Assembly: GCA_021157415.1 (NCBI GenBank)
Contig: JAGGWN010000035.1
Coordinates: 1 to 58,163, forward strand
DNA: 58,163 nucleotides
Source of the DNA: Bacteroidales bacterium
GTDB taxonomy: Bacteria; Bacteroidota; Bacteroidia; Bacteroidales; VadinHA17
Direction of reading: 5' to 3'
Shown: piece by piece, positions 24,996-52,575 of the stretch
Numbering within the stretch: position 1 is the stretch's first letter
Layout of the letters: each line of letters opens with the position of its first letter
Translations under genes and position numbers: made by a program
Notes under the pieces: generated by a model
The model's database searches: none
Seen by the model: only the letters and a program-made list of their open reading frames with translations
What the model was told of the DNA's origin: nothing

Positions 24996-27900
24996 TTAGT
25001 TAGAGGTTTTCACTACTTTACGTATGATCAGGGCGTTACTGGTTTTCACGGCCACCGTGTAAATGCCCGGAGGGAGCTTATCTACCGGGATGACAATCGT
25101 TCCTGTATGAGGTTGTTGCAGGAAAACTTCTTTGCCTGTCAGATTATATAAAGTTACCTGTTCTATGATTGCGGATGAAGAGAGGGTTAAATATCCGGAT
25201 ACGGGATTAGGATAAAGGTATAAGTTACTGACATCCTCTTGTCCCGCGATGCCGGTGGCCGTCTCTGTAGTCAATGCCATGGGCAACATCGGTTTTCCTA
25301 AGATCTCATCAGCCCGGAAAGGCACTGTCAGGCAGGTTTCGTATTCTTTTTTTTCCGGATAAGAAATTATGCGAAATGAAATATTCTCTTCGTTCCGGTT
25401 TGAGAAACAGGTCAAAATATATACGTACCGGTCCAGGGCAGGGACATATTCTGCTTCGGATATCCCTCTGCATTCCTCTCCTCTGTATGCAAGAAGCAAC
25501 TCTCCTGCATGAGTAAGGGATTGGCCTTTCCGGGATATTTCCTCTGCAATTATCGTGGAGGAAAACTCATAGCTCCGGGGAGAAAGATTGTAAGAAGCAA
25601 GCAACTCTCTGCGTGAATAGATTGTTCTCTTTCCGCTTTTTTGATGAGGTGCAGAAGCCCTGTACAGAAGGTTCCCGGCAGATGTCACATACAGATTATA
25701 ACCATGCAGGATTCTGAGAGAGTCAATTTCTCCTGCCCAGCCCGAAGAGGGATAATAAACGGCCGAGCCCGTTTCTCCCTTGATCAGGACCTCTCCGGGA
25801 GGAATGGATGCCGGCTCCAGGGCTGCGTTGATGTCTTCATCGTTTCTAAGCAGATAAGCAATTTGGTTCCATCCCGGAGTCACGGAAACGGAATTGAGCG
25901 ATGGATTGATCTCCTTTCCCAAAACCGTGAATATTTCAGGGGTCTGTTTTCTGAACCTGATCATACCATACTCCGGAAAATTCTGAAGGTTTCCAAACCA
26001 TCCGGTTTGTTCATACCAAACAGACGAGTATTCGGCCGATTTTATATAGTCCATATCGGAAAAGGAGAGTGCGCTGAACAGATTGCTGATATTCATATCC
26101 GGTGGTCTGACATTCAGAGAGAGCCAATTCCATCCTTTCAGTAGGGGTCGTTGGGCGGTTCTAAGGGGATTAGACACTTCCACCCGCCACATCCGTGTTG
26201 TAAAACCATCTTCGGCAGTTACGGTATAATAAACCGGCAGAGAGAAATCATGCAAAGTGCCTGCGGCCGGTTGTATGGTCGCAGAGCGGGACAAAACAAA
26301 GTCAGGACCCAGGGAACGAATGTCATATGCGTAAGGCAGGTAAAGAGTGATAACAGAACCGATAGTATCAATACAGAAAGAATCAAGAGGGCTTAACATC
26401 ACACTGTCAATGAGATTCTCATGGCTGAGTGAATCCATATTGATTATGGTAACAAGTACTTGGTCAGGCTCAGAGTATTGGGTGCCGTCATACACCACCA
26501 GTGAAAAAACGAGGATGGAATCACGGTGTACCAAAGGCGCTGTGAACACTGGCTTTGGTATTGTGTCGGAAGAAAGGATTATTCCGGCCGGAGCTATCCA
26601 CCGCCATGATACCGGTTTGTTTTCAGGGTCATAGGACAGAGAGCCGTCTAAAGCTGCTTGGGTATTTTCCTGAATCGAAAAATCACCACCGGCAAAAGCA
26701 ACGGGTTTCTTATCAATCTGTATGCTTGTAATGGTCACGGTGTCGGAAGAAGAAGATACTGAACCGTCATTCACAACCAGGGTAAAACGGTAAGGCGTAT
26801 TTTCCGTGACCTGCGGCAGGATAAAAGAGGGTTTTGTTCCTGTATTGTTGAACAGAACAATACCGTCGAGGGAAGACCACTGGTAAGACAAAGCGTCGTC
26901 GTCGGGATCCCAGGAAGCGGATCCGTCCAGAGAGACGGAGCTGCCTTCGGCATAGCTCATATCCGTGCCTGCGTCCGAGACAGGAGCATGGTTAACCTGC
27001 AGCACAGTGATCGTCACCTGGTCGGGGTCGGAGATTTCCGTACCATCACTTACGACCAGCGTAACCGTAAAAACAGTGTTCTCATTGACCAGGGGTGCAG
27101 TAAAACGGGGTCGGGAAGAAGTGGTGTCATCCAGGGGGATCCCATCGGGTGCCTGCCAGGCCCAGGTGAGCGAATCACCATCATAATCGAAAGAAGCACT
27201 TCCGTCCAAATAACCGGACGTACCTTCCGTGAGGCTGAGATTATCGCCGGCATTGGCAACAGGCCGGTAACTTACCTGGTCAACACGATGAACAGATCCG
27301 TTTACGAAGGAAGAAAAAAGAGTGCGTTCATTGGCCGAAAAAGCATTGAAAGTTACGGGACTAACGGCACCCAGAGGGAAGTCGTTCTTTATACGGAAAA
27401 CCAGGAAACCCAGAAGGCCTGACTCAATTCCCCTTGAAGAAGCTCCGGAAACATGAATCGTGGATCCCAGCAACGAGGACTGTGTGATCACTCCGCTACC
27501 ATTGCCGGGTGGATCCATGCGAATGAAATCAAGATCGGCGTTGTCAAAGGCAACGGTAAAATCATATCCGTAAACCGCCTTGCCTGATGGCAGAGTAGAG
27601 GTAAGCACCGGCACCCGGGTTTCCTGATCTGCCACCCCGTCAGCATTTGCAATAGTAACTTTATTATCGAGGAGGGTAATGGTATTGCCGGTACCTGTAG
27701 CTCCGTGAACATCGGTGACCGTTACGGTTATGTTGCCTCCGGACAGGGCCGTCAAAGTCCCCAGTGCATCAATGGTTGCCAGGGATTCATCAGAAATATG
27801 ATACGTGTAAGGAGGGGTTCCGTTGCTAACGATTATTTGCCGGCTATCGCCCCACATCAGGGTAGCGGAGCCGGGTAACAACACCAGGTCAGGCAGGGCT

Positions 27901-28991
27901 TTGACCGTAACATAGTAAGTCGTCAGGCCTGGCAGGCCTGATAAGGTCTCATTAAAATGCATCTCCCCGAAACGGATCACCCGATTGCCACTTTTGCCGG
28001 CACGGAAGGCAGGATAGCACAGGATCCCGTTGCCGCTGATACCCTGTGATGAGGCAAAGGAGAGTATCATCTTCCCGCTACTGACATTGTTTTCGATCAG
28101 GATATTGAAATCCCCCGGCAGGATATCTTCTTCCAGACCTGATAACCCGCTGTCGAAGGACAGCTCGATATGACCTGAGTAAACAACAGTTCCCGGAGCG
28201 ATGTTAAGCTTTATCGGTAGGAAAAAGGTGTCGGCAGGCCAGACTGTGGATGTCTCCAGGTCTGTACTTATTGCCCTAACATCAAAAACGCCGGAAGTAA
28301 TCGATATTTCCCCCCTGGCGTCGGTAACCCTGATGCGTGTTTTGCCGGCCCCTGTAGCCCGCACCCTGTTTCCGGACGTGATAACGGCGACGGAAGGGTC
28401 TTCCACCGAATATTGATAAGGAGCTGTTCCACCGTTAACGCCCATTTCCGTTTCATCACCGATATACATTTGTTGCTGATCCGGAAAAATATCGGGATAA
28501 GACCGGGCGGAAGCATGTATGACAGTATTTTTAAACAGGGCTTCGGGATTTCGTTCATTCAGATAGCTCTCCGCAATATGAAAGCTGATGGAGGCATCCC
28601 CCGGGCGCCGGGACACAAACTGAAGATATACCATATCACCGCTTCCTGTCAGCGGCAATGAACCCGCCCCGGCCAGAATGAGTACCCCCTCATGTGTACT
28701 GTTCAGGGAAGGTGCTCCCCACGACGAAAGAACACTTCCTGTACCTGCCAGACCGGTAAATTCAAAATAAACGGGAGAATAAGTAAGATAAAAATGATAA
28801 GAAACAACAGACCTCCCGGTAAAGACGGAATCTGCCTGTATGGTTACCGTGAATGTGTCTTTTTCAGTGACCGTGGCTCCCGAAAGACTGAATCCAGGAG
28901 CACCGCTCTGTGCCATGCACGGAAAACCCCATGCTGTCAGCAGGAGAACGCCGGTAATCAGGATCATATGAAATAATTTATTCATCAACAC
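24996..28991 (-). CDS. Secreted scaffold-like protein with three cohesin-like and three PKD/REJ-like domains, T9SS-sorted
   Basis: A 1331-aa protein with signal peptide (about 1-28). Three cohesin-like beta domains (about 32-160, 240-360, 445-575) alternate with Big_2-type Ig domains (about 165-235 and 365-440). Three PKD/REJ-type repeats follow (about 578-860; each with the pattern PVADAG..., DGSASFDPDND and VSDG). Then an unassigned beta region (about 870-1240) and a T9SS sorting domain (LYLYPNPVSGYLTLSS to the end). Cohesins bind dockerins, and the gene upstream encodes a dockerin-like module, so the two products may dock to each other. The cohesin calls are from fold-level patterns by eye. 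It lies 49 bp after the upstream gene and 19 bp before the giant gene. Confidence 0.82.
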   Translation of the reverse strand: MLMNKLFHMILITGVLLLTAWGFPCMAQSGAPGFSLSGATVTEKDTFTVTIQADSVFTGRSVVSYHFYLTYSPVYFEFTGLAGTGSVLSSWGAPSLNSTHEGVLILAGAGSLPLTGSGDMVYLQFVSRRPGDASISFHIAESYLNERNPEALFKNTVIHASARSYPDIFPDQQQMYIGDETEMGVNGGTAPYQYSVEDPSVAVITSGNRVRATGAGKTRIRVTDARGEISITSGVFDVRAISTDLETSTVWPADTFFLPIKLNIAPGTVVYSGHIELSFDSGLSGLEEDILPGDFNILIENNVSSGKMILSFASSQGISGNGILCYPAFRAGKSGNRVIRFGEMHFNETLSGLPGLTTYYVTVKALPDLVLLPGSATLMWGDSRQIIVSNGTPPYTYHISDESLATIDALGTLTALSGGNITVTVTDVHGATGTGNTITLLDNKVTIANADGVADQETRVPVLTSTLPSGKAVYGYDFTVAFDNADLDFIRMDPPGNGSGVITQSSLLGSTIHVSGASSRGIESGLLGFLVFRIKNDFPLGAVSPVTFNAFSANERTLFSSFVNGSVHRVDQVSYRPVANAGDNLSLTEGTSGYLDGSASFDYDGDSLTWAWQAPDGIPLDDTTSSRPRFTAPLVNENTVFTVTLVVSDGTEISDPDQVTITVLQVNHAPVSDAGTDMSYAEGSSVSLDGSASWDPDDDALSYQWSSLDGIVLFNNTGTKPSFILPQVTENTPYRFTLVVNDGSVSSSSDTVTITSIQIDKKPVAFAGGDFSIQENTQAALDGSLSYDPENKPVSWRWIAPAGIILSSDTIPKPVFTAPLVHRDSILVFSLVVYDGTQYSEPDQVLVTIINMDSLSHENLIDSVMLSPLDSFCIDTIGSVITLYLPYAYDIRSLGPDFVLSRSATIQPAAGTLHDFSLPVYYTVTAEDGFTTRMWRVEVSNPLRTAQRPLLKGWNWLSLNVRPPDMNISNLFSALSFSDMDYIKSAEYSSVWYEQTGWFGNLQNFPEYGMIRFRKQTPEIFTVLGKEINPSLNSVSVTPGWNQIAYLLRNDEDINAALEPASIPPGEVLIKGETGSAVYYPSSGWAGEIDSLRILHGYNLYVTSAGNLLYRASAPHQKSGKRTIYSRRELLASYNLSPRSYEFSSTIIAEEISRKGQSLTHAGELLLAYRGEECRGISEAEYVPALDRYVYILTCFSNRNEENISFRIISYPEKKEYETCLTVPFRADEILGKPMLPMALTTETATGIAGQEDVSNLYLYPNPVSGYLTLSSSAIIEQVTLYNLTGKEVFLQQPHTGTIVIPVDKLPPGIYTVAVKTSNALIIRKVVKTSN

Positions 28992-29040
28992 AGGATTTTA
29001 TAGAGGCTCCCTTGCAGAATATGGGTCCTCCGGGTTAACT

Positions 29041-32000
29041 TTACCTTACAACAATTTTCCTGGTAATAATAAAGTCCTGGCCACGAATGGTCACGATATA
29101 GAGTCTGAGGGGATTTTGTCTGCCGTTTTTATCAGGCGAGAAAGTGAAATGATTCATCCCTGCAGGAATATTCCGGAGAGTCAGTCCGTTGGTCCTGCGG
29201 CCACTGAGATCATAAACCGTGATCACAAGCTCCGGCTGTTTTGACAACAACTCCAAACCAGCTACAATCCGTAAGTCTTTACTGTACAGCTCTATCCTGC
29301 GGATACCGGTTTCTTCCAGACCAGTGACGGCATTCTCTGTATTGACTGTAAAACCGCCTGATACTCTTTGCTCTTCCGTTTCGTTGCCCTTTACTTGTTT
29401 CAGTGCAATAACCGACGCCTTGATTTCCGGATTTTTTATCCCGAAAGTTAGCATGATCTTATTTTCAGTCAGGTTAAGATCATAGGCGGATGTCAGGGCT
29501 ATGCGGATACTTCCGTCTTCTTCATTGTAACCTGTGGCACTCATAATGCCGGCAGGCAAATGGTCCGACTTCAAACCGGTAAACGTCAGATGTTCGGAGT
29601 TGGTTTCAAATACCAGCTCTAGCGATTTGATGCTTTCCGACGTAGTCAGAGTGACAGGCACTTCGAAATCAGCGCTTTCAGGGAACAACGGACCGGAAGG
29701 TATCGTTACGTCAACCGGGTCGCCGATAAGGGCTGATTTCTTCCCTCCCTGGTCAAATCCGGTGATCAGTCCCACGGTATATTGCAGGATCAGGGAGGCA
29801 TCGTACGCGGAGATACTACCGTCTTTTGACACGTCCGCCACTGCCTGCTGCGAAGCATTCAGGGTTATGTTACCTACGGTATACTGCAGGACCAGGGAGG
29901 CATCATAGGGCATTACTTCACCGTTAAGGCTTACATCCCCCGTTACCGGTATGGAGGGATGGGTGATCCATGGATCGAAATCCACGTGGTTGGAGACTCT
30001 TTCTCCTGTTCCGTCAGGATTAAGCGTAGGATGCCACGGACCGGTATCGTCATTCCACCAGCAATTTTCTGCATTAATTTCTACCGTCCCTGTTTCATTC
30101 CAGATTGCATAACCGTGGGAGGGATCACAGCCTGAAAAATCACAATGGTCAATATCGGGCACAGAAGTATTCCTTATCAGGATCCCCCAGAAATCATCTG
30201 TAAACAGGCTATTGTGTATCGTGGGAGAAGCATTATCAAGGGTAATACCTGCACGATTAGAGCTGTGGACATTATCCGAATAATGATACGAAGCATTCTT
30301 AATGACGCAATGATCCATGAGACAGGAAACATCGATGGATTCTCCCGGAAAGTAAATTCCTCTCCACCAATGATTATTAGCAGGGAGAGCATCCCCATCC
30401 CCATAAGTATCCCCACCGTAGAAATCATCCCTGTCGGAGGTAAAGACAATGGAGCTGTCGGGTGTGCTGCCTCCGTCGGCAATCAAACCGTTGCGGACCG
30501 TCAGGTATCCGTTTTGCATGAATTTACAAACCACACCGGGAGATATGGTTAAAACGGCACTGGTGCCAATGGTGTAGCGATTGAAGATATAAGGGATATT
30601 GGTTATCCCGGCAAAATTTCTTTTCCCGAGTGTGGCATTCTGGGTGAGTGTTTCATTGTCTTTCACCAGGATACCCCTGCCGGTAGTCCCGCTTAACAGA
30701 TTGTCACTTTCAACTGATGGGAAAGCCAGGACAGATACCGACATTGGAAAAGGAATATCTTCAAAAGTGCAGAAACGAATGACCGGGGCACTGGCTCCGC
30801 TGAGACCAAGAGCATAGTTCTCATTTTTATAAAAAAGGCAGTGTGTGATAACAGGAGAAGCATCCGAAGTGGATATCCCATAGTATCGCGAATACCGGAA
30901 GGTTGCATGATCTACGGAACTGTTGTCATCAGACTGATCCCTGAAAATAATGCGGCATCCTTCTTTAGTTACTGATACGGACCCGTTTTGCTCCGTATCT
31001 CCCGGCTTACCGAATACATCATCCCGCACGGTGGTAAAAACAACAGGTTTATCAACTGTTCCTGCCACCGTAAGCTTGCCATAGATGTCGAAATAAGCAC
31101 CGTTATCACTCTTGAAAACCAGGCCGGACGGAATGGTTAACTGGTCATCCACACGTATGTTTTCATTGACCAGGTAGGTGATGGTATCATATCCGGCAAA
31201 GCTTCTGACAGGCACCGTACCGCTGACTGCACCTCCGTTCAGGCTGATCCCCACCTGAGCCACATTGGCGATGGTGTTGCCTGAGAAAACGGGATTGGCA
31301 AACATATCCATGTGTACCGGAGCTTCACGGAGGTTGTTAAAAGCACACTGCGTAATGTGGGGATTGGCATCTCCATGAATCATCACCCCAAAATTATCCG
31401 AGAAATTTACAGTTACCTCCTGCATGTTGAGTTTGCAATCGCTGATGCTGATACCGTTACGTATATATCTCACCTCACAATGAGAGAGCATATTTAAGCT
31501 GTCATGTGAATCACCGGCGAATTCCATCCCCGACCATTTATGATTTGTGGGATCGTCGCCTCCGTTGAAGTTGGTATTGCCTGAAACGGAGTTATCATAC
31601 AGGGATGTAAAAATGATTTTTCCGGTTTCCTCTCCTTGTGCTTTCAACCCTCCGTGAACGACAAGCTTGCCGTAATATTCCCGGAATTTGAACACTGTAC
31701 CTGGTAACACGGACACGTCAGCATTCGCCGGAACGGTCATGGTATTGTCAATAATATAGGCAAGATTCGTATGACCGGCAAAATCCAGTCCTCCTAAAAC
31801 GTAAGTCCCTCCCAAAAACTTATCAACATAAACCCCCAGGTATCCGATAGACGAGAAACTATTTCCCAGAAGAACCGGGTTTCCGTCATTCAGCTCGCGC
31901 GCCAGGGGAAAGTAGGAAATGTTCTCAAAATAATTATTCAGAATCCGGGCATTACCGGAAAATAAAATGGCCCGGTAGGTATTTCTGATATCACAGTTTT

Positions 32001-33570
32001 CAAGAATATTATTGTTTCTCAGGGTGATGGAATAATACCCGTCTCCACGTCCTGCATACAGTATCTTCCAGTATTTCAGATGAGAGGGAACTGAACTATT
32101 AAGGATAATACGTCCGGAGGTGCTGCCTGAGATAGAAGTTGTTCCATCATTGTAAGTATCACCCGGATTTCCGTAATTATCATCGTTAATATGGGTAAAG
32201 ACAATGGGGCTTGCAGCTGTTCCAACACCTGTCAGAGGGCCGTTGGCCAAAAGATAATAATTCTTGTTTTTACACTTGATCACAATCCCCGGATCAATGA
32301 TAAGAGAAGCCGTGTCCTGAACCACCACATTTCCTTCGAGGGTAAAGGTAATGTTATCAAGATTTGCGAAAGACACCTGACGGAGATGGGCGTCATGATA
32401 CACGGTAGAACCTATAATACCAATGGCCCGGCCTTCGCTGGCGTTAAAATCCACCGAACAGTTGTTGAATGTTGGACCGGCATTCATATCCATATTGATA
32501 TTCAGTGTCTGTGCCCCTTCATAAGCAGATGGCATGAATTTACTATCGGAAAAAACAGGGAAAGCTTGTCCGGTGACCACCAGGTTGTAACGGTTTCCGG
32601 TAAACAGGCAATGCTCAAAAACAGGAGAACTTTTTATTACCTCCACAGCACATCTGGGCAATTCGCTGTTTCTGTTATTGTAATTGGAATATCTGGCACC
32701 GGTAAACTTGCAATAAGTCATGATACATGCGGTATCCACTGCTTCCCTGATATTGATCCCCTGCCAGTAATCATAGGAAGGTTCATGGTCGAAGATGACA
32801 GAATCGGCAGAGATTCCAAGGGCTTTCAGCTTTCCGTTGACATTGATCCAGGCATCCTTGCTCCCCAGAAAAGAGACACCGGGATACAGATACAGCAACC
32901 CACCGGAGGTGATACGCAGCTCGGAATCATAATAATACGGTATGCCCGTATTTTTACAGATAAAATGATTGTTGATATCCCGGAAATTGAGGTAGATATA
33001 ATCATGATCATTGCCGGTAAGTGTGAGGTTGTCTCCCGTATTCCACTGCCCGTTTCCACTAAAATATACCGGATAGGAACAACCCCTTATGGTGGTTTGT
33101 TCCAGATGCAGGGTTCCGTCCGTATATACATTTACTCCGTAACTGCTGAAATTTTCTAACAACGTATTGTTTGCCAGTGTAAGGTTTCCTTTTCTGACAC
33201 GGATTGATTGTGCATACTCCAGTTGACAATGATCCAGAGAGATGTTGCCGAAATCATTGCCATATTCATATCCGACATACAGTCCGTCCCAGAACCCTTC
33301 ACTGGTGCTGTTATTGGCAGTGAAGGTGACATCGGTGGCGTCCATTGCGCCATACACCACAATGTATTTCCCATTGTCAAATCTCAGTTCAACACCTGGC
33401 TCAACGATCAGGGTAATACCGGCATTCACTGTGATATTATTGGTAACAATGTATGGACTGTTGGCCGCGGTCAGGGTTGTATTGCTGCTAAAGACGCCCC
33501 CGATGTTGGTTTGTGCCATCAGGGAAAAAGTAGTGAAAATAAAACCAGTGAAAAGGTAAAACTTTTTCAT
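29041..33570 (-). CDS. Secreted beta-helix repeat protein with dockerin- and cohesin-like modules, T9SS-sorted
   Basis: A 1509-aa protein: signal peptide (1-19), about six right-handed beta-helix units of roughly 195 residues (units begin near residues 36, 205, 395, 595, 790 and 985; each has a VxPGxVxKF turn, then IVFTS, DD and GD), a type I dockerin-like pair of calcium-loop repeats (about 1210-1268: DVSLNGEVMPYD and DVSKDGSISAYD, each followed by ASLxLQYTVG), a cohesin-like beta domain (about 1275-1410) and a T9SS-type C-terminal domain. Beta-helices of this kind bind or cut polysaccharides; no catalytic residues are assigned. First gene of the secreted operon; its start is 35 to 560 bp from the candidate operator and divergent regulator. 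Confidence 0.86.
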   Translation of the reverse strand: MKKFYLFTGFIFTTFSLMAQTNIGGVFSSNTTLTAANSPYIVTNNITVNAGITLIVEPGVELRFDNGKYIVVYGAMDATDVTFTANNSTSEGFWDGLYVGYEYGNDFGNISLDHCQLEYAQSIRVRKGNLTLANNTLLENFSSYGVNVYTDGTLHLEQTTIRGCSYPVYFSGNGQWNTGDNLTLTGNDHDYIYLNFRDINNHFICKNTGIPYYYDSELRITSGGLLYLYPGVSFLGSKDAWINVNGKLKALGISADSVIFDHEPSYDYWQGINIREAVDTACIMTYCKFTGARYSNYNNRNSELPRCAVEVIKSSPVFEHCLFTGNRYNLVVTGQAFPVFSDSKFMPSAYEGAQTLNINMDMNAGPTFNNCSVDFNASEGRAIGIIGSTVYHDAHLRQVSFANLDNITFTLEGNVVVQDTASLIIDPGIVIKCKNKNYYLLANGPLTGVGTAASPIVFTHINDDNYGNPGDTYNDGTTSISGSTSGRIILNSSVPSHLKYWKILYAGRGDGYYSITLRNNNILENCDIRNTYRAILFSGNARILNNYFENISYFPLARELNDGNPVLLGNSFSSIGYLGVYVDKFLGGTYVLGGLDFAGHTNLAYIIDNTMTVPANADVSVLPGTVFKFREYYGKLVVHGGLKAQGEETGKIIFTSLYDNSVSGNTNFNGGDDPTNHKWSGMEFAGDSHDSLNMLSHCEVRYIRNGISISDCKLNMQEVTVNFSDNFGVMIHGDANPHITQCAFNNLREAPVHMDMFANPVFSGNTIANVAQVGISLNGGAVSGTVPVRSFAGYDTITYLVNENIRVDDQLTIPSGLVFKSDNGAYFDIYGKLTVAGTVDKPVVFTTVRDDVFGKPGDTEQNGSVSVTKEGCRIIFRDQSDDNSSVDHATFRYSRYYGISTSDASPVITHCLFYKNENYALGLSGASAPVIRFCTFEDIPFPMSVSVLAFPSVESDNLLSGTTGRGILVKDNETLTQNATLGKRNFAGITNIPYIFNRYTIGTSAVLTISPGVVCKFMQNGYLTVRNGLIADGGSTPDSSIVFTSDRDDFYGGDTYGDGDALPANNHWWRGIYFPGESIDVSCLMDHCVIKNASYHYSDNVHSSNRAGITLDNASPTIHNSLFTDDFWGILIRNTSVPDIDHCDFSGCDPSHGYAIWNETGTVEINAENCWWNDDTGPWHPTLNPDGTGERVSNHVDFDPWITHPSIPVTGDVSLNGEVMPYDASLVLQYTVGNITLNASQQAVADVSKDGSISAYDASLILQYTVGLITGFDQGGKKSALIGDPVDVTIPSGPLFPESADFEVPVTLTTSESIKSLELVFETNSEHLTFTGLKSDHLPAGIMSATGYNEEDGSIRIALTSAYDLNLTENKIMLTFGIKNPEIKASVIALKQVKGNETEEQRVSGGFTVNTENAVTGLEETGIRRIELYSKDLRIVAGLELLSKQPELVITVYDLSGRRTNGLTLRNIPAGMNHFTFSPDKNGRQNPLRLYIVTIRGQDFIITRKIVVR

Positions 33571-44231: not shown

Positions 44232-47200
44232 TTAAAACTTCAGATTAAGGCCTATAATTACAGACTTGCTTGGATTGTAAGCAAATACGCTTTGTGTTCC
44301 TGAGAAGTTATACGTTGGGTTCATTCCTTTTCGGGCCGTAAACATATAAAGGTTCTCGCCCGTGACAAACACACTTAATTTATCCATTCCCCAATCGGTT
44401 AGAAGGCGTTTCGGAATATCATAACTTAATGTTACACTTCTTATATTCAGATAATTGGAAGATATGAGAAAAAAGTCCGATGTGGCATATAAATTATCGT
44501 TTGCATATTGCAATCTTGGGAAATCCGTAATATCTCCGGGATTTTTCCATGACTTCAAAATATCAGGATGGAATGACTCACCGGGCTTTGCATTCAACAT
44601 ACCCTGGTAAATGCCATCCAGCATTTTTCCGCCAAGCGAATAGGTAAGCAACGCATTCAATGTAAACCCCTTATACGAAAGTGAATTTCCGACAGACCCC
44701 TGCAGATCCGGAAAGGCAGACGCTCCAACGTACCCATAGCCCGCATCGTTTTGGTCTTTTGTAAGTACAGGATTGCCATCTGCATCGTAAGACAATTTTG
44801 AACCGATTACATTTCCTTCATCATCGGTGATATCTTCCCAGACATGGTATCTGGTAGCACCATCATCAGGATCAACATCGTAATACTTCCTTAACCAGAA
44901 ATCATAAATGGAATGGCCTTTGGACCATCTCTTAGTTCCGTTAACAAACGGTTTCGGAATAGACGTGATTTCGTTTTTAATGGTTGACCCCAAAAGACTC
45001 AAGTTCCATCTGAAACCGTTGGCACGGATAATATCACCATTAACATTGATTTCCAATCCTCTGTTAAACAGAGCCGCAATATTCCGTGGTTGATTTAATA
45101 AGCCCATGGAAGAAGGCAATGGCATGTCATACAACAATTCATCAGATTGTCTATTGTACCATTCAATACTACCATTTAACCTGTTAAACAATGAAAAATC
45201 CAAAGCTGCATCAAAGGTTCTATTTACCTCCCAGGTTAATGCTGTATTACCAACAGTGCTCCAACGCAGACCTGGACTTGTGGCGTTTGGGTAGGTTTCG
45301 TACAGAGCCTGGTAGCCATAAGAACCGATATTGTCATTACCTACTTCTCCGTAAGATGCTCTCACTTTCAGGTTGTCTACCCAATCTACACTATTCATAA
45401 ATTGTTCTTTGTTTATTCTCCAGCTACCTCCTATAGAAAAGAAATCACCCCATCTGACATCTTCGTGGAAGGCAGAGGACCCATCCCTACGGTATGATCC
45501 TTCAATATAGTATTTGTTATCGTAGTTATATTTTAGCCTTCCAAAATATCCTTCGGTTCGTTTATCGGTAGAATAACTTGTGTTGGTTGATGTATTCACA
45601 AAGTTATTCAACTCATATATCCCTGTAACAATAAACTGATTTTTAAAGCCCCGCTGGTAGCTATAATTTCTGGAGTAGGCTTCATGTCCGATTAAAATAG
45701 AAAAATTATGAACCTCATTAAAGGTTTTTTCATAATTGATTAACTGATTGAAGTTTAGTGATGTTCTGGTGTATCGGGACACATCCATTCTGGCCGTTGG
45801 TGCACCATCCCCAATTTTAGGATTCTCATAACCCTTATATTGGCGGTTTTGTATATCTGCACTAGCATTGATCGTAGCAGTTAGCCCCTCTAAAATGGTG
45901 AACGTGGCAAAAACTTTATTACCCATATTATTTCTCTTGTATTTATCACTATTCCAGTTCAACTCGGCGATAGCATTTCTCCCCTGGTTAATGGGTCTTG
46001 AATATAATCCCCCATCATCATACTGTTTCTGACCTGCTCCATCGAGAATATATTCGCCGGTGGTCTGGTCAACCAGAAAAACAGGGTAAATAGGAGCTGT
46101 CATCCTTGCATTTCTAAAAGGGTTGGCATATGTTGCAGAATTTGAAGTACCAATATCGCTATTAACCAAAGTAGCATACATATTTGCCCCTATCTGCAAC
46201 CATTTTTTAACCGTATAGTCAATATTTAAACGAGTATTCAAACGTTCAAAGTCCGACTTAATGGTATAACCTCTTTCGTCCAGATATCCCAATGAGTAAT
46301 AATAGCTAGCTTTGGAACTACCTCCTGAAAGGCTTAAATCGTAATTTTGCCGGTATCCTGTTTGTTTGGCAGCCTTATACCAATCCAAATCCGGAAAACC
46401 GATCTTTGCATTTGGATTTATTTTTCCATCAGATCCTACAATCTCATCGTTGGGTGTTCCCACGAAAGGATTATACCTTAACTGAGAAAAAATATTTTGA
46501 TATGCATATGCTCTCGCATCGTCTATTGAGGCATCAGCTCCTGACCAAAACCTTGACTGTGCAAAAGCCTCTGCCTGAAGCTCATAATAATCGAAAGCGT
46601 TTACGGAGGGGTAGTAAGGAAGGGCATGGTCAATCAACCCTCCCTGCGCTTTAAGATTCACCTTTATCCCTTCACTGCCTTTTTTCCCTTTTTTTGTGGT
46701 AATAATTATGACACCGTTTGCAGCACGTGAACCATAAAGGGCTGTTGACGATGCATCTTTAAGTATTGTAATGGACTCAATATCCGATGGATTTATACTT
46801 GAAATACTCCCGGAATATTCAGATCCATCCAAAACGATCAGTGGGTAGGCAGATGTGTTTAAGGTTCCAACCCCACGTATCCGGATATCAGGAGAACTTC
46901 CCGGCTGACCCGATCCCGATGTAGTTTGTACACCAGGGGCAGAGCCTGTGATTACTTGGGCAACGGAAGATAACGAACGACTCTCAATGTTCTTTGAGTC
47001 AATAACAGCCGCCGAACCCGTTAAAGATTCTCTCTTGATCTTACCGTAAGCAACAACCAACACTTCTTCCAGACCCAAAATGTCCGGTTCAAGGGTTGCA
47101 TTGATAACAGATCCCGTAATAGGAAGTTCAAGTCTTTTCATGCCAATAAATGAAAAAACAAGATGGGTTGCGTTATCCGGCACTTCCAATGTGTACTCCC

Positions 47201-47378
47201 CATTTATGTTTGTGGTTGTACCCATCGTCGTTCCTTTTACATAGACGGACACCCCAGGAATGGGCTGGTTATCCTCGGCAGAAATAACCTTACCGCTTAC
47301 TTGTTTAGTTTGCGCATGTAGTGTCAAACCACCTATTAATAGTAGCAGCATTGACAATAGAAACAATTTTTTTTTCAT
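44232..47378 (-). CDS. SusC/RagA family TonB-dependent outer-membrane transporter
   Basis: A 1048-aa protein: signal peptide (1-22), a carboxypeptidase regulatory-like domain (about 25-105; GKVISAEDNQPIPGVSVYVKGT), the plug with the SusC signature (about 115-235; PGVQTTSGSGQPGSSPDIRI and SSTALYGSRAANGVIIITTK), and a 22-strand barrel to the C-terminal Phe. It imports SusD-captured ligands with energy from TonB-ExbBD. There is no STN domain, so sigma/anti-sigma signalling through this protein is not expected. A TATGTTTG element about 135 bp upstream may start the susCD transcript. The pair is bracketed by inverted repeats. Confidence 0.95.
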   Translation of the reverse strand: MKKKLFLLSMLLLLIGGLTLHAQTKQVSGKVISAEDNQPIPGVSVYVKGTTMGTTTNINGEYTLEVPDNATHLVFSFIGMKRLELPITGSVINATLEPDILGLEEVLVVAYGKIKRESLTGSAAVIDSKNIESRSLSSVAQVITGSAPGVQTTSGSGQPGSSPDIRIRGVGTLNTSAYPLIVLDGSEYSGSISSINPSDIESITILKDASSTALYGSRAANGVIIITTKKGKKGSEGIKVNLKAQGGLIDHALPYYPSVNAFDYYELQAEAFAQSRFWSGADASIDDARAYAYQNIFSQLRYNPFVGTPNDEIVGSDGKINPNAKIGFPDLDWYKAAKQTGYRQNYDLSLSGGSSKASYYYSLGYLDERGYTIKSDFERLNTRLNIDYTVKKWLQIGANMYATLVNSDIGTSNSATYANPFRNARMTAPIYPVFLVDQTTGEYILDGAGQKQYDDGGLYSRPINQGRNAIAELNWNSDKYKRNNMGNKVFATFTILEGLTATINASADIQNRQYKGYENPKIGDGAPTARMDVSRYTRTSLNFNQLINYEKTFNEVHNFSILIGHEAYSRNYSYQRGFKNQFIVTGIYELNNFVNTSTNTSYSTDKRTEGYFGRLKYNYDNKYYIEGSYRRDGSSAFHEDVRWGDFFSIGGSWRINKEQFMNSVDWVDNLKVRASYGEVGNDNIGSYGYQALYETYPNATSPGLRWSTVGNTALTWEVNRTFDAALDFSLFNRLNGSIEWYNRQSDELLYDMPLPSSMGLLNQPRNIAALFNRGLEINVNGDIIRANGFRWNLSLLGSTIKNEITSIPKPFVNGTKRWSKGHSIYDFWLRKYYDVDPDDGATRYHVWEDITDDEGNVIGSKLSYDADGNPVLTKDQNDAGYGYVGASAFPDLQGSVGNSLSYKGFTLNALLTYSLGGKMLDGIYQGMLNAKPGESFHPDILKSWKNPGDITDFPRLQYANDNLYATSDFFLISSNYLNIRSVTLSYDIPKRLLTDWGMDKLSVFVTGENLYMFTARKGMNPTYNFSGTQSVFAYNPSKSVIIGLNLKF

Positions 47379-47512
47379 AGAAATTAAATTTAAGGTTGGG
47401 ATTAATAAAAATGATTTAAAAATTAAATTAATGTTTTTAAATGTTTTTACTAGACTTCCTATTTCTTAAAATAAAACAAAATAATAAGGAAATTATTTGT
47501 TAAAGATTATAT

Positions 47513-47520
47513 CAAACATA
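47513..47520 (-). promoter_or_regulatory. Candidate -7 element for susCD
   Basis: On the minus strand TATGTTTG fits TAnnTTTG and lies 135 bp before the susC start, leaving a long leader of the kind common for SusC genes. It is inside the inverted-repeat-bracketed unit, so the pair would carry its own promoter. Confidence 0.4.
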
Positions 47521-47660
47521 GAAAGCAATAGTAATCATTTTATTTTAAAAAAAAAATTTTAATAAAACAAAACTCTATGATGATTCCCCATTTTTTTGCA
47601 GCAGGGAGATTCTTTCCCAGATCCTCTGGATCGGGGCATTAAACCTTCTTCTCGTCCGCC

Positions 47661-47687
47661 ATAGCGGAACGCGAAGACGGATTAAAA
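47661..47687 (+). repeat. Short dispersed repeat, copy 2
   Basis: Second copy of the element at 12811-12837, with the same CGGAACGC core and trailing A-run. The sequence just upstream (TCCGCCATAGCGGA, about 47655-47668) is itself an inverted repeat. Confidence 0.5.
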
Positions 47688-47725
47688 AACAATGATTATA
47701 TAAGCAGAAAGAATAAAATCAAATA

Positions 47726-47756
47726 CACACTTTTTTGGACACTACTCCAATATTGG
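47726..47756. repeat. Right inverted repeat beside a CCAATATTGG palindrome
   Basis: CACACTTTTTTGGACA (47726-47741) is the inverted counterpart of 42204-42218. Six bases outside it is CCAATATTGG (47747-47756), sharing the CAATATTG core with the palindrome outside the left repeat. Confidence 0.65.
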
Positions 47757-47770
47757 TATAATCACAATAC

Positions 47771-47793
47771 GTCGTATGTTTGCAACATACGAC
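47771..47793. other. Perfect 10-bp hairpin
   Basis: GTCGTATGTT (47771-47780) and AACATACGAC (47784-47793) are perfect inverted repeats around TGC. No T-tract follows. It lies just outside the right transposon-like end and about 220 bp before the Rieske gene, so it may be a protein-binding site, an IS target or a remnant end. Confidence 0.55.
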
Positions 47794-48014
47794 ATTTCTT
47801 TCCGGGAAAACAAAGAAATTTCTTAAAACAAACTATCCCTAAGACAGCCCGCTCTTGCCAGCCCTGTCGTTAAGGCCTCCGACAAAGGCTACGGCCTGTG
47901 CGCAATAGAAGGTTTTTTGAAATCCCTGTTAAGCAAACCGGATTTATTTTGGATGACTGCTTCTTTGCTCATTCTGCTTGTACAGATATCATCCATTTTC
48001 TTTATCTTTACATC

Positions 48015-48428
48015 ATGTCCAGTTATTTACCACAGGCAGGCCGCAGAAAGTTTTTCAAGGTTCTCGGAGGGATTCTTGCCGCACCATTCCTTGTCGTCGC
48101 CGGAATGGCGATAAAAAAAACGGAACAAAACCAGGGCAAAAGCCGGATCATTTTGCCGGCCATCCCTGAAGGAATATCTTTTCATGGAGCTGTAATCACC
48201 ATACGGACGGGTAAAAAAGTACGCGTACTTTCCTCCAGTTGCACACACCTGGGATGCCGTATCCAGTCGACCCGGGAAGGACACTTACAATGTCCCTGCC
48301 ACGGATCCGAGTTTTCCGGCGACGGGTCCGTTCTCAAAGGACCTGCTGACAGGCCCCTGACATCGCTCCATTACAAGACCGACCCTGTCAGCGGACAGTT
48401 TACTATTTATCTGAACCGTAACGTATGA
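48015..48428 (+). CDS. Rieske [2Fe-2S] protein
   Basis: 137 aa from the ATG at 48015; an upstream in-frame ATG at 47898 would prepend 39 residues without conservation, so it is rejected. N-terminal signal or anchor of twin-arginine type (Arg10-Arg11 in GRRKFFKVLGG, hydrophobic 17-31), then a Rieske fold with both cluster-binding motifs: CTHLGC (76-81) and CPCHGS (93-98). Ligands are Cys76, His78, Cys93 and His96, with a Cys81-Cys95 disulfide. The Tat-type signal is the usual route for Rieske proteins. Its stop overlaps the start of the cytochrome b fusion (ATGA), so the two should be made together as subunits of one quinol-oxidising complex. Confidence 0.93.
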   Translation: MSSYLPQAGRRKFFKVLGGILAAPFLVVAGMAIKKTEQNQGKSRIILPAIPEGISFHGAVITIRTGKKVRVLSSSCTHLGCRIQSTREGHLQCPCHGSEFSGDGSVLKGPADRPLTSLHYKTDPVSGQFTIYLNRNV

Positions 48429-51211
48429 GTCTGTTCAGAAAGACATTCCGGTATCTCCTGTTTGATACCTACGGAGCTTTTTCCATGGCTCTGTTGGTCA
48501 TTTGCATCCTTTCAGGGATCATTTTGGCCATCCCGTTTAATGTATCGGCACCCCATGATTCGGTCATCCGGATTATGCTGTACAATCCCCCTGCAGCATG
48601 GTTAAGGAATTTGCACTACTGGAGTGCACAACTGTTTCTTGTTTTTTTCATCCTGCATCTGTGGGAACAGTTCAGCCAGTGGGGAGAACAACGAGTCGGA
48701 CGGGGCCTGTGGTTTGTCCTGGTTGTAGCCATTCTTTTTGTTTTTTTTGCCATGCTGAGCGGATTTATCCTGAAAGGGGATGCCGACAGCCTGCAGGCCC
48801 GCAGAATCCTGCATGAACTGTTGACCAAAATCCCGGTGGCAGGCAAGCTTCTTGCCTGGTTTTTTCTGGGCCGTGAACCCGGATTTCAGATCATTTATGT
48901 CCAGCACATTGCCGTTGCCACCCTTTTTCTGGTAGTTATCACTTACGAACATGCCCACACCCTGTGGGCCAGGCATGACACTTTTCTCGTAATGCTCCTG
49001 ATTACGGGAGTAACAGCTTTGCTCTTCAATGCTCCGCTGCATGATCCCCACGATCCGGTTCTGAAAGGACCTTGGTATTTTAATGGTTTACAGGAGATTC
49101 TTCACTGGATGAGTAATCCTGGATGGTCTGTTTTATTAGTAGTTTTAATCCTCATGCTTATCTGGTTTCTGCCTTATCTGAAGGCATACCAGGAAAAATA
49201 CGTTAAAAAAATACTTGCCGGATCATTATTTATTTATTTACTGCTTACATTGATGGGATATTATTTCAGGGGAGAAGCGTGGCAATGGGTGATTCCCTGG
49301 CGGCAACAGGACAGGCACAGCGGACAGGTAAAAGCCGGTGCCGGACTGGCACGTACTCTGTTTCTCCGGAATGACTTAAGCTTTCAGGACACCCTCCCTG
49401 CCAGCGGGAAGGAAGGATGTATTTCCTGTCATGCCCATACGCAAGGATTGTCCCCTGCGCATGACCCTCTCTCCATCGGTTGCTCATCCTGTCATCTGGG
49501 CAACCCCTACACTACTGATAAAAAAGATGCTCACAAAGGCATGGTACTTATCCCGGGAAACCTTAGCGAGGCCCGACTTACTTGCGGCACTACCGATTGT
49601 CACCCCGATATTTCAGATCGTATCCGGAACACCTTAATGAGTTCACTCAGCGGCATGATCGGCGTGGACAAGTTTGTTTTTAACGAACACCCTAACCCGG
49701 ACGGGCACTATCATGTAAGAGATCTTCAAGATAAGAAAGCTTTGTCTGCCTCCGAGACCCATTTAAAAAATCTCTGCGTTTCCTGTCATCTCGGAAATAC
49801 ACGCTCCCGGCCGGAAGTCCTTACAGATGAAAGCCGCGGTGGAGGTTGCAGTGCCTGCCATCTTAATCATAACAACAGAACACTGTCAGAATGGTCGTCC
49901 TATCTGGCAGGCAACAAGACAGATACTCTCCTGCCCCACCATCATCCCTCCCTTTCGCTCCGCATCACCAACGAACATTGTTTTGGTTGCCACAGCCGCT
50001 CGGGGCGTATCTCCCCCAATTATGAAGGATGGCACGAAACCTTTCTGGCGCATGAGCAGATCCCGGACACAGGCCGCTTCCGCACCCTCCATGACGGCAG
50101 GGTCTTTACCTATGTCTCTGAGGACATTCACCACCACAATGGGATGGATTGCATTGACTGTCACACATCCTATGAGCTGATGGGCAATGGGAAAGAATAC
50201 CGGCATGAAGAGCGACAGGTAACCGTACGTTGTGAAGATTGCCATACGAATAAAACCCATAACTGGATCAGTCGCCGGGATCTGGATAAAGAGAACCGTC
50301 TGATTGCCGAACTTCGTAAACTTAAAGCCGATTCTTTCCCTGAGGGTATTGTCTCCGGCAATCCACTGCTGAATGTCCGATCAGACAGCAATAAAAGATT
50401 ACTCCTCCATACCAAACTTACAGGAAAAGACTTGCCTATGCTTCCGCCCGTTGCAGCCTGCACGCGTAAGGAAGCACATCAGGCAGTCTCCTGCACTGCC
50501 TGTCACACGACCTGGGCTCCTTCCTGCATCGGCTGTCACAATCAGTGGGAGCCCAACGCCAGGGGATATGATATGCTTCACGACAACCAGCCTGTCCTGA
50601 GGTCGTGGGTTGAATATGCCGGGATCATGTCTGCAGCCCCCCCCGCATTGGGTGTATCCACTGACACAACCTCCTCGGGGGATCTCCGGAAAGAAGTGCT
50701 TCCTGCCATCCCGGGCATGATCCTGACCATAGACATGCATAGTTTTAATCCTACCTCTCATGACAGCCTGATTTTTCACCGTTTATTTGCCCCTGCCCAG
50801 CCACATACCATCAGTGCCAAAGGACGCCATTGTAAATCATGCCACAACAGTCCTCAGGCACTGGGCTTCGGCAAAGGATCATTAACCTATGTCGTATCCG
50901 GAAGATATGGTCACTGGAAATTTACCTCCGACTATGTCACCCGGCCGGAAGACGGTCTGCCGGAAGATGCCTGGACCGGCTTTTTGCAGGAAAGGGATGG
51001 TCCGGTTTCTACCCGTAGTAACTTCAGGCCGTTCAACATACAGGAACAGCAAAAGATCCTGACTGTAGGAGCCTGCCTGACCTGCCATCCCGAAAACTCG
51101 AAAGTAATGCAGAAAAGTCTGACCCGGTATCAGAAAGAACTGAGCCATCTCAGTCCCAACTGCATTTTACCGGATTGGAACGATGTTCGTACATTGCCCA
51201 AAGATGAATAA
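48425..51211 (+). CDS. Cytochrome b - multihaem cytochrome c fusion protein
   Basis: A 928-aa fusion. Residues 1-290 form a cytochrome b: helices with bis-His haem pairs H64-x13-H78 and H161-x14-H176 (the bc1/b6f spacing), a GPWYFNGLQEILHW motif (215-228) in place of PEWY, and two further helices (about 235-250, 263-280). Residues 332-888 carry eleven CxxCH motifs (first CISCH at 332, last CLTCH at 884) and one CxxxxCH (about 388), so up to twelve c-type haems outside the membrane. Rieske gene overlaps by 4 bp. The module should oxidise quinol and pass electrons along the haem chain to an unknown acceptor. Similar cytochrome b/multihaem proteins occur in anaerobes, usually as separate subunits. 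Confidence 0.93.
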   Translation: MSLFRKTFRYLLFDTYGAFSMALLVICILSGIILAIPFNVSAPHDSVIRIMLYNPPAAWLRNLHYWSAQLFLVFFILHLWEQFSQWGEQRVGRGLWFVLVVAILFVFFAMLSGFILKGDADSLQARRILHELLTKIPVAGKLLAWFFLGREPGFQIIYVQHIAVATLFLVVITYEHAHTLWARHDTFLVMLLITGVTALLFNAPLHDPHDPVLKGPWYFNGLQEILHWMSNPGWSVLLVVLILMLIWFLPYLKAYQEKYVKKILAGSLFIYLLLTLMGYYFRGEAWQWVIPWRQQDRHSGQVKAGAGLARTLFLRNDLSFQDTLPASGKEGCISCHAHTQGLSPAHDPLSIGCSSCHLGNPYTTDKKDAHKGMVLIPGNLSEARLTCGTTDCHPDISDRIRNTLMSSLSGMIGVDKFVFNEHPNPDGHYHVRDLQDKKALSASETHLKNLCVSCHLGNTRSRPEVLTDESRGGGCSACHLNHNNRTLSEWSSYLAGNKTDTLLPHHHPSLSLRITNEHCFGCHSRSGRISPNYEGWHETFLAHEQIPDTGRFRTLHDGRVFTYVSEDIHHHNGMDCIDCHTSYELMGNGKEYRHEERQVTVRCEDCHTNKTHNWISRRDLDKENRLIAELRKLKADSFPEGIVSGNPLLNVRSDSNKRLLLHTKLTGKDLPMLPPVAACTRKEAHQAVSCTACHTTWAPSCIGCHNQWEPNARGYDMLHDNQPVLRSWVEYAGIMSAAPPALGVSTDTTSSGDLRKEVLPAIPGMILTIDMHSFNPTSHDSLIFHRLFAPAQPHTISAKGRHCKSCHNSPQALGFGKGSLTYVVSGRYGHWKFTSDYVTRPEDGLPEDAWTGFLQERDGPVSTRSNFRPFNIQEQQKILTVGACLTCHPENSKVMQKSLTRYQKELSHLSPNCILPDWNDVRTLPKDE

Positions 51212-51300
51212 ATTTCCCACCTCTCCTCAGGGAGAAGTATAAACGGCACATAGGGATAATCTTCGGATAAGTAAGGTTCTTTTCATCAACCCATCCCTCA
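51212..51300. other. Short gap between convergent genes
   Basis: 89 bp between the cytochrome fusion and the TPR gene. A small stem (TCTCC...GGAGA, about 51224-51237) lies just after the cytochrome stop, without a T-tract. No gene is seen. Confidence 0.35.
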
Positions 51301-51579
51301 TCAGTCAAGCCAGGGATCATGATTCGTATTGGTATCGGAAAAGATATCGAGGTTGGTAAATTTCAGGATGGTTTCCAGGAAACGGGCTCTTTCGCGCGCC
51401 TCCCTGTATTCCGGATGTATCTCTATGATTCGGTGCAGATCATTCAGTGCCTCTCCAAAACGACCTACCTGCTGTAACAGAGCGGCACGTTTGTAAAGCA
51501 GGGTTAAATCATCCGGGCTGTTTTTCAGTTTCCGTGTAATCTGCTCAATCTCTTTTTCCGGTGGCCATTGTTGTTCCAT
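51301..51579 (-). CDS. Small TPR protein
   Basis: A 92-aa protein with a helical hairpin followed by one clear TPR-type repeat (about 30-65; LYKRAALLQQVGRFGEALND) and a short acidic tail ending HDPWLD. No signal peptide or membrane segment, so cytoplasmic. It begins 3 bp after the MBL-fold gene ends and is likely translated from the same mRNA. TPRs mediate protein contacts; the partner is not evident. Similar short TPR genes often trail metabolic operons in Bacteroidota. Confidence 0.7.
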   Translation of the reverse strand: MEQQWPPEKEIEQITRKLKNSPDDLTLLYKRAALLQQVGRFGEALNDLHRIIEIHPEYREARERARFLETILKFTNLDIFSDTNTNHDPWLD

Positions 51580-51582
51580 ATT

Positions 51583-52386
51583 TCAGTCTTCAAACCGGTA
51601 CACATCGCCGGATCTCACAAAGTTATTTTTATAATATGCATAAAAGCGAGCCAGGGCAGGCAGTTCGGTACAATGGGAGGGGAAAGCATTTTCCACACCC
51701 ATCCTGATAAAGCAATCCACAACACCCTTTGTCTGCCTGTCATCCTCTTTCAGATGAAATCCACCCATGGCAGCTACGATTCTCTTGTCTCCGGTAATTT
51801 TCATAGCATGGGTTATGGTATTGCAGATACCGGCATGTCCACAACCGGTTACTATAATCAATCCCTTTGAGGTTGATATGGCAATGCCGCTGTCATCCGG
51901 CATAAAATCATCTGCACCGTCTTCTTTCTCAAAAGAGGTTTTCTTCGATTCAAAATCATTCAATCTGGGGATCTCCCCCAGAAAAAAAATATCTTCCATC
52001 ACCTGCAACGGTTCCCTGGTCTCCAGAAGCTCAAATCTGCTAACAGCCTCCTCCCGGGACAGAGGCAAACCAATATATGCATGGTCTCCCTTGTGGTATT
52101 TTCCTGCAAATGCTTCAGGGTGGCAGATCAGTTTGCGTTTTTTTTCCCCTTCCCTTCCCAGGTGTATCAACCCGTTGCCATGATCATAATGCCCGTGACT
52201 TAACACAATTGTATGCACATCTTCCAGATCAATATTCATTTTCCGGGCATTCCTGAGGATAATATCCGAGGGTCCGGTATCAAACAGTATCCTCTCCCCG
52301 TCCTTTTCTATTAGCCAGGAAAGGCCATGTTCGGAACCGAGGTTTCCGGAGGGACGGTTATCATTTAAAATAGTTATTGTAATCAT
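51583..52386 (-). CDS. MBL-fold metallohydrolase
   Basis: A 267-aa metallo-beta-lactamase-fold protein with the HxHxDH dinuclear metal motif (SHGHYDHG, His64, His66, Asp68, His69), a TGCGHAGICN motif (the third metal ligand) and GGFHL. This pattern is that of the subgroup annotated 'beta-ribofuranosylaminobenzene phosphate synthase-like' or methyltransferase-associated MBL proteins, which occur in anaerobes beside NifX-like and radical SAM genes, as here. Substrate unknown. Cytoplasmic; no signal peptide. Full length for the group. Confidence 0.87.
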   Translation of the reverse strand: MITITILNDNRPSGNLGSEHGLSWLIEKDGERILFDTGPSDIILRNARKMNIDLEDVHTIVLSHGHYDHGNGLIHLGREGEKKRKLICHPEAFAGKYHKGDHAYIGLPLSREEAVSRFELLETREPLQVMEDIFFLGEIPRLNDFESKKTSFEKEDGADDFMPDDSGIAISTSKGLIIVTGCGHAGICNTITHAMKITGDKRIVAAMGGFHLKEDDRQTKGVVDCFIRMGVENAFPSHCTELPALARFYAYYKNNFVRSGDVYRFED

Positions 52387-52470
52387 AAACAGCTAAAGTT
52401 AAATAATAATCTTCTGCCATTATGCCATACAGTACGAAAAATAATCTTGCCAACGTTCAGATCGAAAAGA

Positions 52471-52483
52471 GTCACTTCGTGAC
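52471..52483 (-). terminator. Weak hairpin after the radical SAM gene
   Basis: On the minus strand GTCAC-GAA-GTGAC is followed by TCTTTT. The 5-bp stem is short, so it is only a possible terminator. Confidence 0.3.
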
Positions 52484-52575
52484 GAAATTATTATCACGCT
52501 CATGCCTTTCGCATACAAAACAAAATCATTTCCATCCATTTCGCAGCTGCAGGCAGCTCATTTCGCGGATCCGCC

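Follow-up and report, generated by a model that had tools for sequence, protein, structure and literature searches.

An Ext-like Rieske/cytochrome b locus in Bacteroidales with cytochrome b, a subunit-IV-like part and a dodecahaem cytochrome c in a single chain

Known systems and the locus under study

Complex III normally passes electrons to a mono- or dihaem cytochrome c subunit. More elaborate arrangements are on record. Rieske/cytochrome b complexes have been described in which the multihaem cytochrome, with five or with six to eight haems, is a subunit of its own (PMC12954380, PMC4683180), and a cytochrome b fused to a dihaem cytochrome c is found in Kuenenia (Kuste3096-3097) and in Gram-positive bacteria (PMC12954380). 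The extHIJKLMNOPQS cluster of Geobacter sulfurreducens encodes, as separate genes, the Rieske protein ExtO, the cytochrome b ExtP, the membrane protein ExtQ and the 12-haem cytochrome ExtM (PMC5877670). Ext proteins are more abundant with Fe(III), and loss of ExtI impairs the reduction of selenite and tellurite, a role that has been shown for ExtI only (PMC5877670).

The window analysed here is a stretch of 58,163 nucleotides from a Bacteroidales bacterium (contig JAGGWN010000035.1 of GenBank assembly GCA_021157415.1, forward strand). At 48015-51211 it contains two genes, one for a Rieske protein and one for a 928-residue protein in which a cytochrome b, a subunit-IV-like part and a dodecahaem cytochrome c are merged. 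What is new is the joining of twelve haems and a b6/subunit-IV core in one chain; the kin complex has been described, yet it is biochemically uncharacterised. No description of a cytochrome b-dodecahaem fusion was found among the open-access papers that were searched, most subscription journals lying outside the scope of that search. The first-pass contrast with complexes that keep cytochrome b and haem c apart needs amending, since dihaem fusions are known (PMC12954380); the novelty lies in the number of haems and in the single-chain core.

The Rieske protein and its fused partner

The Rieske gene (48015-48428, + strand) encodes an ExtO-like [2Fe-2S] protein of 137 residues (PF00355, E 6.5e-12) with an N-terminal RRKFF and a membrane anchor. 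Its ATG at 48015 is backed by homologues, the mechanically called open reading frame (ORF) beginning upstream at a GTG (47898). Both cluster boxes, CTHLGC and CPCHGS, are intact, and the ligand boxes are invariant across homologues. The fusion gene (48425-51211, also + strand) shares the four bases ATGA with the Rieske ORF, as had been noted at first pass. A survey of gene order, which the first-pass annotation had proposed, places the Rieske gene upstream and on the same strand in 38/38 fused loci that have upstream sequence (39 fused loci were compared); the gap is mostly a few bases, and 0.8-3.3 kb in four loci.

The fusion protein begins with a b6-like cytochrome b of four predicted transmembrane helices (about residues 1-181, 48425-48967), which matches Pfam Cytochrome_B (PF00033, E 1.6e-8, residues 16-150) and the ExtP profile (E 2.9e-11). 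It is followed by a subunit-IV-like part with three (about residues 184-295, 48974-49309), matching ExtQ (E 3.6e-5) over residues 186-291. A plain hydrophobicity scale picks out six segments; adding the histidine-bearing helix B (residues 55-84 of the model) makes seven, in the 4 + 3 arrangement of cytochrome b6 and subunit IV. The two bis-histidine pairs that would ligate haem b, H64/H78 and H161/H176 (codons at 48614, 48656, 48905 and 48950), are invariant in 40/40 fused homologues, with spacings of 14 and 15. The position aligned with the Qo motif PEWY (residues 215-218, 49067-49078) reads GPWY, rarely GPWF, in 40/40 fused proteins, so that the glutamate of PEWY is absent; the second residue of this motif varies with lineage and quinone potential (PMC9162462).

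The remainder of the chain (residues 326-928, 49400-51211) is an ExtM-like dodecahaem cytochrome c domain. A recount agrees with the twelve motifs reported earlier: eleven CxxCH, at residues 332, 353, 451, 475, 519, 576, 603, 690, 701, 803 and 884, and one CxxxxCH (CGTTDCH) at residue 387, together spanning residues 332 to 888 (motif starts 49418 to 51088). Composition shuffles of the domain (5,000) gave a mean of 0.14 motifs and a maximum of 3, against the 12 observed. All twelve motifs are invariant across 50 aligned homologues, and every fused homologue keeps twelve (a count that allows overlapping motifs reads 13 for one row).

Structure prediction, also proposed at first pass, was run on the fusion protein. 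AlphaFold2 on the 50-sequence alignment gave a mean predicted local distance difference test score (pLDDT) of 86.9 and a predicted TM-score of 0.78; a model from a 15-sequence alignment reached a pLDDT of 49.5 and was discarded in favour of it. In the retained model residues 1-294 have the bc1-type cytochrome b fold: residues 8-294 match complex III cytochrome b with a best Z of 24.5 (9gy6_B, 3.4 A over 279 residues), and the best Foldseek E for residues 1-294 is 5e-9. The top fold matches, within 1 Z of each other, are menaquinol-oxidising actinobacterial bcc complexes. The fold searches covered residues 1-294; a structure-based look listed no multihaem cytochrome, an absence that does not speak for a new fold. 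From the known topology of cytochrome b (N-terminus inside, seven helices) and by analogy with b6f, we infer that the haem c domain would lie in the periplasm. Domains, ligands and predicted fold thus all support the earlier proposal of a bc-type Rieske/cytochrome b core with a multihaem chain of its own.

Kinship with the Ext cluster

NCBIfam divides the fusion into ExtP (residues 13-185), ExtQ (186-291) and ExtM (327-899), the last by profile NF040943 with E 5.3e-61 over profile positions 17-588 of 599. A kinship of the haem domain with Cbc, NrfA or HAO was considered and rejected, there being no full-length match. Judged by sequence, the Geobacter Ext cluster comes closest among known systems; the first-pass comparison with the Cbc complexes of metal reducers gives way to ExtO/P/Q/M, and its proposed alignment of the C-terminus with NrfA and HAO leads to ExtM instead.

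The ExtP and ExtQ matches are weak, and the other, canonical cytochrome b of the same genome outscores the fusion against ExtP. The assignment of the b part therefore rests more on comparison with Campylobacterales, four metagenome-assembled loci of which (L005-L008) have the unfused order Rieske, cytochrome b (267 residues), 12-haem cytochrome, 8-haem cytochrome. Pairwise comparison of the corresponding parts of our locus with the first three gives E of 3e-20, 8e-22 and 4e-83, the two Rieske proteins being 37% identical, and the Rieske and b parts of the fusion locus are closer to Campylobacterales than to the canonical complex of their own genome. The Campylobacterales proteins match the ExtM, ExtP and ExtN profiles, and their gene order is the arrangement that a fusion of neighbours would require. 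In all 39 fused loci the b, subunit-IV-like and ExtM-like parts form one chain; some of these loci also have an ExtI-like porin (E 2.5e-16) and an ExtH-like rhodanese (E 5.5e-19) nearby.

A molybdenum reductase as genomic partner

In the window the Rieske-fusion pair stands alone, between a pair that is SusC/SusD-like by sequence and unrelated genes. Elsewhere it has company: a molybdenum (Mo) reductase gene falls inside the fetched stretch in 30/39 fused loci, typically 600-1,000 bases off and often divergent. The operon runs from the Mo reductase through an iron-sulfur (FeS) protein, NrfD and two YeeE/TsuA-type transporter halves to two rhodaneses, and some fused loci also carry Crp/Fnr regulators. 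The transporter is split into two genes, with the C-terminal half before the N-terminal half, at L027:17517-18680 and in most Mo operons. In a congener (genome G003, L123:10937-13717) a type III sulfide:quinone reductase (SQR; 645 bits, cut-off 525, the NCBIfam model being named for a selenoprotein subtype), a 224-residue protein without family match, TusE/DsrC and DsrE2 lie in a row by the Mo operon.

The source genome's own Mo enzyme has PsrA as its best PDB match (2vpw, E 4e-205), and the partner enzyme scores 473 bits against the PhsA model, whose cut-off is 694. The PsrA/PhsA/SrrA lineage includes polysulfide, thiosulfate and selenite reductases (PMC7331816), and for that reason the substrate cannot be named. 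Among 393 sampled genomes of the order, the Mo enzyme occurs in 25/26 that have the fusion and in 83/367 that do not (Fisher p 2e-14, in a test that counts related genomes as independent). Linkage and co-occurrence suggest, from gene content, that the complex takes part in the anaerobic transfer of electrons in sulfur or selenium metabolism. The first-pass annotation had suggested that electrons might go on to a terminal reductase in the periplasm or outside the cell; what the genomes offer as a partner is a PsrA/PhsA-type Mo reductase accompanied by genes for sulfur handling.

Proposed mechanism and its rivals

On balance we favour a two-gene Ext-type Rieske/cytochrome b complex in which the b, subunit-IV-like and dodecahaem c parts are merged, and which is likely an outlet of the quinone pool to periplasmic haem acceptors. 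Menaquinol would be oxidised at the Qo site, on the P side; the Rieske cluster would hand one electron to the haem chain and the b haems would return the second (Q cycle), with the twelve haems conducting electrons to an acceptor within or beyond the periplasm. A CcsBA-type haem lyase ORF in the source genome makes maturation of c-type haems available. The Mo reductase, NrfD, YeeE and rhodaneses (in some relatives also SQR) would trade electrons between this same pool and compounds of sulfur or selenium, and because these modules would share it, the fused complex most likely serves the pool as an exit towards haem acceptors in the periplasm. The role that we infer as most likely is thus that the complex oxidises menaquinol and passes the electrons to a periplasmic haem chain, within the redox metabolism of chalcogens (sulfur/selenium).

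The couples of elemental sulfur and thiosulfate lie below menaquinone in potential, so electrons from a forward Q cycle must end on an acceptor whose potential is higher; candidates are selenite, tellurite, tetrathionate, Fe(III) and a partner cell. Either, then, the chain exports electrons that come from reduced sulfur compounds and reach the quinone pool through SQR and the Mo enzyme, or the complex or a partner of it reduces a chalcogen oxyanion. A more far-reaching version is offered only tentatively: that a single-chain complex III with a twelve-haem wire couples sulfide/polysulfide or selenium redox chemistry at the PsrA-like Mo enzyme, via menaquinone, to electron transfer in the periplasm or out of the cell, with proton translocation, as a widespread and undescribed module of anaerobic Bacteroidota.

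Several observations weigh against the preferred assignment. The ExtM match, at 206 bits, is far under the equivalog cut-off of 800, and the fusion is therefore classed as Ext-like and not as ExtM proper. Without the glutamate of PEWY, quinol oxidation at the GPWY-bearing Qo site is not guaranteed. No homologue of the ExtI porin was found in the source genome, whose Mo operon is not adjacent to the fusion but on a separate contig (C35). The 83 Mo-reductase genomes that lack the fusion are the majority of the sampled Mo-reductase genomes, so that the fusion is not required for the Mo enzyme, and 12-haem proteins that stand alone, with neither b nor Rieske genes, also adjoin the Mo operon. No biochemistry was found in the literature for the fused complex or for ExtM-Q.

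Of the competing functions the best placed, though an unlikely one, is that the dodecahaem domain works as a terminal reductase in its own right (with tetrathionate, selenite or tellurite, for example) and not as a wire, so that the fused complex would act on its substrate directly. Besides the 12 proximal histidines only 8 histidines are invariant in the 50 homologues (M586 is invariant, M405 and M765 nearly so), and up to four haems may accordingly lack a conserved distal histidine. This alignment pattern leaves room for a catalytic haem without proving one, since non-conserved histidines or methionines could ligate the remaining haems. A weak resemblance to NrfA at residues 557-625 (E about 0.003) points the same way, as does the effect of ExtI loss on selenite and tellurite reduction in Geobacter (PMC5877670); the NrfA likeness is only local (60 residues), no CxxCK haem occurs among the 27 cysteines of the fusion, and it has no full-length match to a known reductase.

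Extracellular electron transfer, in which the haem chain would deliver through an outer-membrane conduit to minerals, electrodes or partner cells, appears less probable still. The abundance of Geobacter Ext proteins with Fe(III) (PMC5877670) and the ExtI-like porin that adjoins the fusion in several relatives are in its favour. ExtI, though, is described as a porin-like channel and not as a known porin-cytochrome conduit, and, as said, the source genome yielded no homologue of it (no search was aimed at an outer-membrane cytochrome conduit).

Reverse running, with electrons from reduced sulfur entering the haem chain and reducing menaquinone at the expense of proton motive force, is very improbable: the neighbouring SQR, rhodaneses and YeeE do handle reduced sulfur, but SQR and NrfD modules already offer electrons a way into the quinone pool that spares this cost.

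Origin and distribution of the fusion

That an assembly or frameshift error joined two neighbouring genes, a suspicion to which the separate, adjacent cytochrome b and 12-haem genes of Campylobacterales might lend colour, has next to no chance of being right, because the uninterrupted full-length frame recurs in about 40 independent Bacteroidota genomes. It is present in 13/59 other relatives searched (14/60 with the source genome), and the order-wide sample of 393 has 25 full-length fusions and one more that is cut by a contig end; a frameshift, which the first-pass annotation had itself raised, is thereby disposed of. A phylum-wide search with ExtM finds fused proteins in other classes of Bacteroidota too, together with stand-alone 12-haem proteins of 632-655 residues that have no Rieske or b genes nearby, several of which adjoin or sit inside the same type of Mo reductase operon. 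The congener G003 (contig C35, L034:8358-10829) has a second 12-haem ExtM-like protein, of about 808 residues, without a cytochrome b part.

In a tree of the haem domain (midpoint root, two stand-alone rows on long branches) the Bacteroidota sequences separate from those of Campylobacterota, stand-alone forms are nested among fused ones, and well-supported branches force at least three changes between the fused and stand-alone labels. This fits an early fusion followed by losses of the b part. By the sequence comparisons, then, the fusion is real, old and common to the phylum.

A complex III core merged with a dodecahaem cytochrome is thus conserved across Bacteroidota, a phylum that is not regarded as a home of Geobacter-like haem wiring. 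With its Rieske protein, the fusion makes up a compact two-gene version of the Rieske/b complex of the Ext type; co-occurrence with a sulfur/selenium-type Mo reductase makes the function of ExtM-Q directly testable.

Flanking DNA and other genes

Upstream of the Rieske gene, at 47771-47793, lies the near-perfect palindrome GTCGTATGTTTGCAACATACGAC, present in the genome as 4 exact copies and 3 near ones. The copies include one immediately 3' of the CcsBA gene (contig C126) and another 3' of a malate-dehydrogenase-like gene (contig C32). It was considered as an operator and rejected; because copies sit beside unrelated genes, it is not taken as a control element, and it has the look of a family of small dispersed repeats or terminators. 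There is no Rfam match in 46900-52500, and a promoter scan did no better than shuffles.

A second, canonical-looking set of genes, on another contig of the source genome (C21, L126:5617-9916), consists of a cytochrome b (about 425 residues), a Rieske protein and a 785-residue protein that combines 8 haem motifs with a TPR region at its C-terminus. In the window itself, 24996-33570 encodes adjacent large secreted proteins, the first with a weak cohesin match, PKD repeats and a type IX secretion sorting tail, the second combining a right-handed beta helix with a dockerin domain; from these domain matches, a cohesin-dockerin pair in a Bacteroidales is possible. In addition, 15878-24976 encodes a secreted protein of 3,032 residues with CARDB and, again, a type IX secretion sorting tail.

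Comparison with known systems

CbcL of Geobacter resembles the fusion in joining a b-type cytochrome and a multihaem c cytochrome in a single inner-membrane protein. It differs in that it is not known to have a Rieske subunit, and in its b domain, which stands outside the family of Rieske-partnered cytochromes b, whereas that of the fusion matches PF00033 and is predicted to fold as bc1 cytochrome b. PsrABC of Wolinella and Thermus and Phs of Salmonella resemble the Mo enzyme, FeS and NrfD subunits encoded near the fusion, that is, its partners and not the fusion itself; the classical PsrABC/Phs operons are not known to include a Rieske/b/12-haem module.

The Kuenenia complexes (Kuste3096-3097, Kustd1480-1485 and Kuste4569-4574) share with our locus either a Rieske/b core with multihaem c or a b-c fusion (PMC12954380). 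The fused one is dihaem only, and in the multihaem ones the haem c, with 6 or 8 haems, sits on subunits of its own, alongside NAD(P) oxidoreductases.

The Campylobacterales cluster agrees with the Bacteroidota loci in gene order, in the homology of all parts and in an adjoining operon for Mo reductase, NrfD and FeS protein; it differs in that its 267-residue cytochrome b and its 12-haem protein are separate and in its extra 8-haem ExtN-like gene. The Geobacter Ext cluster has the same set of components, a Rieske protein, a cytochrome b, a subunit-IV-like membrane protein and a 12-haem cytochrome, and genes like its extH (rhodanese) and extI (porin) adjoin the fusion in some relatives. In Geobacter these genes are separate, whereas the Bacteroidota chain, which scores under the equivalog cut-offs, merges the b, subunit-IV and ExtM-like parts, and its loci add a PsrA/PhsA-type Mo operon and a split YeeE.

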